A DNA stretch of 64,000 bases from a virus: the IMG/VR virus record IMGVR_UViG_3300042350_004528, positions 1 through 64,000 of that record. One strand, 5' to 3'. The notes below the pieces were generated by a model. The model saw nothing but the letters and a program-made list of their open reading frames with translations, did no database searches and had not been told where the DNA came from. Shown in pieces: positions 8,712 to 10,157 of this stretch (its first letter is position 1; every line of letters starts with the position of its first letter). The position numbers and the translations under genes were made by a program.

Positions 8712-9314
8712 TCAATTGTTTATTAGTTTAGTTAATTTTTCGAAGTCAAATGCTGGTGTCAAATCATAGTGATTTTTACTGAAATTACTTCTGTTGAGTA
8801 TTCCCTTGAAATTCATTGGTTTATGTGCAAGAACATTATTACCGATGAAATTTTTTTCAATTGAGTATTCTATACATAAATAGTTAATTAATTCAAATAG
8901 TACAGTCATTTGCTCATCAGTGTAATCCGCCCATAGCTTTTTACCACGCCAATTTGTTTCAATAACGGCGCCTTCATATCTAATTCCACGCCAATCTAAA
9001 TAAGCATCAGTTTTTTTGTGATATTCAAGCCACCCAACATTTTCTATCGCAATTGGTATAACAGCTTTATTTATATCATCTTTATCAAATAAGGGGCTAT
9101 AATTTTTGGGATTATAGTGTTGGTATAAAATACCAGACCTACTTATTGTGTAAGCTGGAATTTTATTGTATTTTTTATTAAATCTCAGTTTTAATTTTGT
9201 GATAAAGTCATCTATCGGATAACCAGTGTTTAACAAGACTATTTGTTTCTTATTTTGTCTTGTTTTAAACACTAAGCCATCATTAATTACAAAATCAGTG
9301 TTGATGTTCACCAT
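8712..9314 (-). CDS. PGRP/Amidase_2-like protein, possible endolysin with an altered zinc site
   Basis: A 200-residue protein with the layout of the N-acetylmuramoyl-L-alanine amidase (Amidase_2/PGRP) fold: a first strand IVLLNTGYP (24-33), a GILYQHYNP segment (61-69), the strand IPIAIENVG (86-94), YTDEQMTVLFELINYLC (131-147), VLAHKP (161-166) and HYDLTPAFDF (182-191). His164 and Asp184 fit two zinc ligands. The first ligand, normally His in the VIHH/HxTA motif of strand 1, appears replaced by Leu-Asn (residues 28-29). It may therefore be a divergent or inactive amidase, perhaps a binding protein. A frameshift-extended product of the upstream gene would end within its first codons. Confidence 0.65.
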   Translation of the reverse strand: MVNINTDFVINDGLVFKTRQNKKQIVLLNTGYPIDDFITKLKLRFNKKYNKIPAYTISRSGILYQHYNPKNYSPLFDKDDINKAVIPIAIENVGWLEYHKKTDAYLDWRGIRYEGAVIETNWRGKKLWADYTDEQMTVLFELINYLCIEYSIEKNFIGNNVLAHKPMNFKGILNRSNFSKNHYDLTPAFDFEKLTKLINN

Positions 9315-9426
9315 CTTTAAAAACTCTTATAGTATCTATAAAGTTTATTGTTGGCGGTGTTTCGACTAACTCTGGTTGAATTTCCGTTGGTGTTTCGACT
9401 AACTCTGGTTCAGACGTTAGTTTTTT
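9295..9426 (-). other. Putative -1 ribosomal frameshift site and extension ORF
   Basis: The zero-frame membrane-protein ORF ends GAA AAA AAA AAC TAA. Positions 9426-9420 are A_AAA_AAC, the classic slippery heptamer, in the right phase. A -1 slip continues 41 sense codons (SEPELVETPTEIQPELVETP and more) to a TGA at 9297-9295. The extension contains no ATG and two copies of an in-frame 33-base unit, and matches the acidic Pro/Glu tail it would join. The product would be 287 instead of 246 residues. The alternative is a one-base error in the run of ten A's. Either way the region appears to be coding. Confidence 0.55.
9356..9410 (-). repeat. Direct repeat, two 22-base copies 33 bases apart
   Basis: Positions 9356-9377 and 9389-9410 are identical. 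The 33-base offset is a whole number of codons, and in the -1 frame both copies encode PELVETP. This supports translation of the interval rather than non-coding DNA. Confidence 0.85.
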
Positions 9427-10157
9427 TTTTCGTCATCCTCAGTAGTTTGGATAACATCTTGAATAGTCTCTTGATCATTTAAAATTTCTGGTTCTATGAC
9501 CTCGCTTTGAGGTTCTATTTCATTTATTAATTCTTCTCTGTACTGCGAATTAGCCAATGCGGTTGGTTCGTCTGAATCGTTATAGTTTTCTTCTCCGTAT
9601 TTTTCAACATTATCTTTTCTAATTTTTTCAGCGATATCCCAAACTTTTTGATTAACCTTAACTTTATTTGATTCTACAAGTTTCTCATCAACCTGAGTCG
9701 GTTCAGTTACCTGTTCCTCATTTGGTTTAATATAATCAACGAGCGATTTAATAAAACCTAAAGCTACTAACGGTAAAATTGCGCCAGACACTATCGATAG
9801 AATTCTTTTTTGAAAAATCGGTTCTTCCTCAACCAAACCAAATAATTCAATCCACGATTGATAATTTTCTAGGTGAACATAGGCAAAATAAGTATTACCC
9901 ATTGCCTGCATGGCTGTTAAAACAAAAAATAACGCCCATACAATACCCTTGTTCATTTTTTGTAATGCTATAATTGAAGCAAGAGATGCTGCGGCACCAA
10001 CCTCAAACGCAATTGCTAAAGTGATTGCTAACCAGTCTGGATTAGATAGTTTGAAAAAATCAATTACGTGTATTGTTGATATGACGGATACCATCACATA
10101 TAGCAATACAAACGTACCTATTATAAAATTCCTGGTTAATTTATTCTCACCCTTCAT
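9417..10157 (-). CDS. Four-TM membrane protein with acidic cytoplasmic tail (246 aa; 287 if frameshifted)
   Basis: Four hydrophobic segments (about residues 10-30, 40-65, 72-92 and 118-140) are followed by a roughly 100-residue charged, Pro/Glu-rich tail that ends EDDEKKN. I do not recognise the family; a holin-like role is possible next to the amidase- and spanin-like genes, but the long tail is unusual for a holin. The start codon shares a base with the stop of the 59-residue gene upstream. The final codons form a slippery A_AAA_AAC site leading into a 41-codon extension. The tail may be a docking platform of variable length. Confidence 0.75.
   Translation of the reverse strand: MKGENKLTRNFIIGTFVLLYVMVSVISTIHVIDFFKLSNPDWLAITLAIAFEVGAAASLASIIALQKMNKGIVWALFFVLTAMQAMGNTYFAYVHLENYQSWIELFGLVEEEPIFQKRILSIVSGAILPLVALGFIKSLVDYIKPNEEQVTEPTQVDEKLVESNKVKVNQKVWDIAEKIRKDNVEKYGEENYNDSDEPTALANSQYREELINEIEPQSEVIEPEILNDQETIQDVIQTTEDDEKKN

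Follow-up and report, generated by a model that had tools for sequence, protein, structure and literature searches.

The stretch of DNA analyzed here, herein referred to as the window, comprises positions 1–64,000 of the IMG/VR virus record IMGVR_UViG_3300042350_004528 (298,833 bases in full; G000). A run of exactly ten adenines (A10) was found on the minus strand of the window, at the end of a membrane protein gene (gene 1) and directly ahead of a long open stretch in the −1 frame. This A10 is probably a programmed slip site for RNA polymerase. That the gene is recoded at all, by polymerase and ribosomal mechanisms taken together, is very likely. The same arrangement of tract, stop codon, and open −1 frame is conserved in relatives of gene 1 and recurs in a second gene of the same phage.

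Layout of the A10 site in the window

Gene 1 (positions 9417–10157, minus strand) encodes a membrane protein of 246 amino acids in the 0 frame, as judged from its open reading frame, AlphaFold2 modeling, and homologues. Its 3′ end reads GAG GAT GAC GAA AAA AAA AAC TAA. The candidate slip site, A10, occupies positions 9421–9430 (minus strand; 0-frame codons GAA AAA AAA AAC) and is also present in the relatives L001, L010, and L078; the TAA that ends the short form lies at 9417–9419 on the same strand. The −1 frame extension (9295–9420, minus strand) consists of 41 sense codons, CTA ACG TCT ... CAC, encoding LTSEPELVETPTEIQPELVETPPTINFIDTIRVFKDGEHQH, followed by TGA at 9297–9295. At its upstream end this frame is closed by a TGA just before the A-run, and ATG, GTG, and TTG are absent from it. 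Having no start codon and being closed upstream, the extension can be reached only through a change of frame.

The next gene (8712–9314, minus strand) encodes an amidase-like protein of 200 amino acids, assigned from a sub-threshold Pfam match and its conservation as a neighbor. Its ATG at 9314 is located 17 nt upstream of the TGA of the extension, which therefore stops inside the start of this gene. Two identical copies of a 22-nt direct repeat were found within the extension, at 9389–9410 (first in the reading direction) and 9356–9377 (second), both on the minus strand and 33 nt apart from start to start. Thus, the initial annotation had described the anatomy of the site correctly: an in-phase A_AAA_AAC within ten A's before the TAA, 41 sense codons lacking their own start, a repeat with a period of 33 nt, and a stop inside the start of the next gene were all recovered by reading the frames. 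The repeat, which encodes PELVETP, matters little. It is not kept even in L001, a 93%-identical relative. The conserved part of the extension is the C-terminal INF..I.VF..GE. In the window this motif, INFIDTIRVFKDGE, is encoded at 9307–9348 on the minus strand, here in the −1 frame, and it is known from the in-frame C-termini of relatives lacking the A-run.

Translation of altered tract lengths gave a 287-residue form from an A11 transcript and a 286-residue form from A8. In A9 and A12 mRNAs a stop is found two or three codons further on.

AlphaFold2 predicted four confident membrane helices in the 0-frame protein (residues 6–35, 41–64, 70–95, and 113–143) and a disordered acidic tail from residue 188 (pLDDT below 50). 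Among relatives this tail is hypervariable apart from its last residues. No named match to the membrane protein was found among PHROG families, Pfam families, or PDB folds. A search of BFVD returned unnamed phage membrane proteins and weak DUF2637-type matches; a holin role is not claimed on such matches. The neighboring gene scored 22.4 bits against Amidase_2 (PF01510), below the cut-off of 26, and is herein called amidase-like only; it is conserved beside gene 1 in relatives. A role in lysis could be suggested only by this neighbor, itself sub-threshold for Amidase_2. The conserved motif could conceivably be a docking peptide on a flexible tether, with recoding limiting the number of copies that carry it. 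The stop codon of the extension lies 17 nt into the amidase-like gene, and relatives with the motif in frame end in a similar fashion; recoding may couple translation to the amidase-like gene, by analogy with the coupling of spa13 to spa32 in Shigella.

At the level of the record, positions 1–126 of the window overlap the other end (the last 145 bases of G000, L123) by about 126 bases. Because the two ends overlap, the record probably represents a complete genome. Its final 19 bases, AATGATACGGCGACCACCG, are an untrimmed Illumina adapter. A large tRNA array, including tRNA-Lys(UUU) and tRNA-Asn, is located at G000:238000–281000 (L120–L122); in the part of the record beyond the window, 27 tRNA genes were found.

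Relatives of gene 1 and the ancestral form

Relatives of gene 1 were taken from IMG/VR, and each contig was counted once. An exact A10 combined with a 0-frame stop no more than two codons from the run and 37–41 open −1 codons was found in four phages: that of the window, L001, L010, and L078. The amidase-like gene of the window is 87% identical to that of L001, 52% to that of L010, and 63% to that of L078. These relatives lend support to the proposal of the initial annotation that −1 recoding gives forms of 246 and 287 residues, since A10 and the open extension are kept; the frame, which had been suggested as a check for interrupting stops, is open in all three. The concern that the A-run had been miscounted is untenable given ten A's in the relatives. 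Conservation of the heptamer together with the extension had also been raised; the run of ten and the extension are indeed kept, whereas the last base of the heptamer varies.

Between the run and the motif the sequences of the four A10 phages cannot be aligned with one another, yet all four end in INF(I/L)xxI(R/K/M)VFxxGE. In eight relatives without the A-run (L002, L004, L036, L057, L079, L087, L090, and L093) this motif ends the normal C-terminus in frame. L097/L103 and L104/L106, distant relatives with about 30% identity, likewise lack the A-run and have this ending in frame. In these relatives without the A-run the in-frame endings adjoin the start of the same amidase-like neighbor. A hidden Markov model (HMM) of the in-frame C-termini gave the extension of the window the top rank of 1,554 window peptides (E about 0.004, against 0.19 for the next unrelated peptide) and also recovered the extensions of L001, L010, and L078. 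Since the extension carries a motif that lies in frame where the A-run is absent, comparison of these C-termini marks the 287-residue form as ancestral and the 246-residue form as derived, created by the A-run.

One reading of the extension is that it is not a protein tail, its frame being conserved merely through overlap with the translation start of the amidase-like gene. In every relative the motif does end at the ATG of the next gene. However, most codon differences in the motif fall at third positions (GTT/GTA/GTG, GGT/GGA, AAC/AAT) while the residues are kept, and this pattern extends to divergent relatives in which the motif is plainly in frame; this is the least probable of the readings considered. 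Between the window and L001 synonymous constraint in the extension is weak (dN/dS about 0.45), which counts against the slippage reading; the 17 differences are too few for a decision.

In a tree built from the membrane core and the amidase together, the four A10 phages are grouped on the same side of a branch with support 77/86; the tree of the membrane core alone did not resolve this grouping. This suggests a single origin of the A10 in gene 1, followed by long retention. The A-run of gene 1 is limited to a few relatives, probably one clade, and this too is a point against the slippage reading. In the INPHARED phages one unannotated relative of gene 1 was found. L017, which encodes a more distantly related membrane protein, has an A11 directly before TAG (L017:2374–2384) and a −1 frame open for 101 codons. 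This is suggestive of an independent case, found in a different neighborhood and in one distinct sequence.

Coding A10 runs elsewhere and a second A10 gene

Runs of ten A's or T's are rare in this phage. The window has one, against 12.9 expected from dinucleotide shuffles, and the whole record of 298,833 bases has three. Coding runs of at least ten A's number two, against 12.1 ± 2.7 expected after shuffling of synonymous codons in 286 ORFs (minimum 6 in 200 shuffles). Coding A9 runs are also low under synonymous shuffling (7 seen, 17 ± 3 expected). Both coding runs of at least ten in the record are located at putative recoding sites, one in gene 1 and one in gene 2, described below. Given the strong depletion elsewhere, long A-runs are avoided almost everywhere and kept at 9421–9430.

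Other genomes of the group were searched for such runs. The sole A10 of G004 (190 kb) is that of gene 2. G003 has six A10 runs, of which one is in gene 2 and the other five are located outside ORFs or at their ends. No A10 runs were found in G001 (206 kb). Two were found in G005 (141 kb), one in gene 1 and one, in frame, in a third protein. The latter belongs to the phage of L078 (L226, G005:110300–112700; run at 1202–1211) and joins two protein parts, a 200-residue N-terminal part and a domain beginning YVDIDNTIAETNG, HAD-like by eye. An A9 or A11 transcript would release the N-terminal part alone, making this a possible third case.

Gene 2 is located outside the window on the plus strand (G000:163735–165002, equal to L124:2236–3503) and consists of a 0 frame of 122 amino acids and a −1 extension of roughly 300 codons. 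Its A10 lies at G000:164088–164097 (plus strand), where GTT TTA AAA AAA AAA GTC TAG ends the 122-codon frame. After redundancy was removed, two scans for relatives left 28 different sequences that have the site, that of the window's phage among them. A10, an immediate 0-frame stop, and an open −1 frame were present in all 28; the −1 frame is 123–331 codons long, the shortest being bounded by a contig end. Among the 59 invariant 0-frame residues of gene 2, 50 vary synonymously; the remaining nine, each with a fixed codon, contain the contiguous Leu-Lys-Lys-Lys block TTA AAA AAA AAA. As this block never varies while 50 of the 59 do, the nucleotides of the tract, the tenth A included, are under selection.

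Further homologues of gene 2 were sought in the records behind the gene-1 loci (G003, G004, G010, and G011). The usual arrangement was found in G004. In G003 (L222, G003:199458–202820) A10 is kept and the long form of 343 codons is in frame, the phase having changed outside the tract; A9 or A11 would give 130–132 codons, so that slippage in this phage would shorten the protein. In the distant G010 and G011 the homologue is one continuous ORF without A10. No match to gene 2 was found above the cut-off in PHROG or Pfam, and no relative of it was found in the INPHARED phages. A strong hairpin of 13–15 bp with compensatory-looking changes lies about 30 nt downstream of the A10 in one subclade of gene 2 (L188, L191, L201, L204, L210, and L216) and is absent from the window's own phage. 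The polymerase-slippage model does not account for this hairpin.

Candidate mechanisms of recoding

The sequences establish the anatomy of the site, its conservation, and the ancestry of the long form; we infer that the tract slips and that the polymerase, not the ribosome, is the cause. Slippage would then govern the product ratio and might affect expression of the downstream gene. During transcription the RNA:DNA hybrid would slip in the A10/T10 tract, and some mRNAs would gain one A (A11); A8 mRNAs would also reach the long frame. A faithful A10 mRNA would give the 246-residue membrane protein. An A11 mRNA would give, by ordinary decoding, the 287-residue form with its tail ending INFxxxIxVFxxGE at the start of the amidase-like gene. 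The A9 and A12 mRNAs would act as short forms, and tract length would set the ratio of the two products.

Three features of a slippage site were found. A homopolymer of at least nine bases lies within the gene (A10 at 9421–9430, and in L001, L010, and L078); the A11 product of 287 amino acids ends in a motif conserved among relatives; and the run length is selected beyond the need of a heptamer, as indicated by the depletion of A10 elsewhere and by the invariant TTA AAA AAA AAA in 28 of 28 sequences of gene 2. Published data show an exponential increase of single-base insertions with the length of the run (PMC5574713). An A11 tract in tssM1 shows about 20% slippage with added A's, and the polarity of slippage is reversed in tssM3 (PMC4256274). 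No match to the RNA polymerase beta′ family PF04998 was found in the record, so the host polymerase is the likely slipping enzyme. The host is presumed to belong to Bacteroidota.

The initial annotation had proposed −1 ribosomal frameshifting, in which the tRNAs of the P and A sites would slip back by one base and pair anew, so that translation goes on in the extension. This reading is unlikely, yet it is the strongest competitor of polymerase slippage. An in-phase heptamer is present at every site (A_AAA_AAC in the window and L001, A_AAA_AAG in L010 and L078, A_AAA_AAA in gene 2); any A10 holds A_AAA_AAN, so ribosomes may slip there too, and the shift is always in the −1 direction. The A_AAA_AAG of L010 and L078 is a strong site, and tailed phages often use frameshifting of this type (PMC5009743). 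Genes for tRNA-Lys(UUU) and tRNA-Asn are present in the phage, and one subclade of gene 2 has the strong downstream hairpin. However, six or seven A's would suffice for the ribosome, whereas the tract stays at ten, and in gene 2 the tenth A belongs to the invariant Leu codon TTA. The conserved length beyond the heptamer favors the polymerase, as does its constancy while the codon phase and the last base vary among A_AAA_AAC, A_AAA_AAG, and A_AAA_AAA. The same is argued by the sites themselves: A_AAA_AAC, which had been regarded as an efficient bacterial −1 site, and A_AAA_AAA are reported to rank far below A_AAA_AAG in E. coli (PMC5009743). Stem-loop folding revealed no downstream structure common to the gene-1 relatives (z from −2.3 to +0.35), which again favors the polymerase, and the gene-2 hairpin is too far from the tract and does not occur in the phage of the window. 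Inspection by eye showed no conserved Shine-Dalgarno-like element: GAGGA occurs upstream in the window and L001 only, and GA-rich codons are to be expected from an acidic tail in any case. With the run length fixed, the last base of the heptamer variable, and no downstream structure common to the gene-1 relatives, the ribosomal proposal is not well supported. In vitro, ribosomes slid robustly on A11 and slightly on A9 and A10 (PMC4363877).

Two further readings were rejected because the length of the tract is constant. Phase variation at the DNA level, in which the tract would expand or contract during replication and toggle the C-terminus between virions, is very improbable. The homopolymer does adjoin a frame switch, and poly-A tracts are known as sites of this kind (PMC3711429); however, A10 is found in all four gene-1 phages of the clade and in 28 of 28 gene-2 sequences, and the frame-equivalent state is the same everywhere except in L222, whose phase change lies outside the tract. 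An artifact of sequencing or assembly (a miscounted run), or a gene that was recently broken (a decaying extension), is a shade less probable still: the window is a single metagenomic record and homopolymers are error-prone, but the same A10 occurs in two genes in independent assemblies from many metagenomes, the extension is open to the amidase start in four divergent phages, and the tract is kept despite its avoidance elsewhere.

Significance and comparison with known systems

We lean, by a little, toward the wider view that these large phages as a group use slippage of the host polymerase at an exact A10 as a standing device of gene expression. This includes purging of coding A10 save at sites that determine how much short and long form of particular proteins is made, and a default form that can switch while the tract stays. 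If so, a DNA phage can exploit an error of the host polymerase as a ratio setter, and a coding A10 next to a stop codon would be a simple rule for detecting hidden long and short forms in AT-rich phages; at present, annotations treat genes of this type as truncated or split. To our knowledge, recoding in tailed phages has nearly always been described as ribosomal. No earlier example of a tailed DNA phage with programmed transcriptional slippage was found in a search of open-access text, and the list of viruses with polymerase slippage in a 2016 review has caption signs for single-stranded RNA viruses only (PMC5009743). This kind of mechanism is known in bacteria; what is new, relative to the open-access papers searched, is that a tailed DNA phage apparently employs it in two genes and purges other coding A10 runs across its genome.

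The G/GT tail-assembly chaperones resemble gene 1 in that a tailed-phage gene yields, at a low level, a −1 product with the same N-terminus. They differ in that their recoding is ribosomal and concerns a soluble chaperone gene before the tape measure, whereas here a membrane protein precedes an amidase-like gene. Such an identity was tested for gene 1; no PHROG match was found, and the gene is not positioned before a tape-measure gene.

In dnaX the product of slippage is a truncated subunit, whereas here, as far as the layout shows, it would be an extended protein. The likeness lies in the A9/A10 tract of dnaX, in Thermus thermophilus and in species with A10, which yields two protein forms assigned to polymerase realignment (PMC3711429).

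In Shigella spa13/spa32 and mxiE, slippage lengthens the protein at its C-terminus; the end of the added part overlaps the beginning of the following gene, and expression of that gene is affected (PMC5009743). These genes have no homology to gene 1, and coupling to the amidase-like gene is proposed here by analogy.

The closest parallels are tssM1 of Citrobacter rodentium (A11) and tssM3 of Yersinia pseudotuberculosis, in which poly-A is located near the stop codon of a membrane protein gene (PMC4256274). In tssM1 added A's restore a longer C-terminal form, and the reversal of polarity between tssM1 and tssM3 parallels that of L222 (PMC4256274). The tssM1 and tssM3 genes are bacterial secretion genes, each described in a single species and with slippage measured. 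In contrast, the present case is known from nucleotide data, and it concerns a tailed phage, two genes in one genome, and a tract conserved across divergent relatives.
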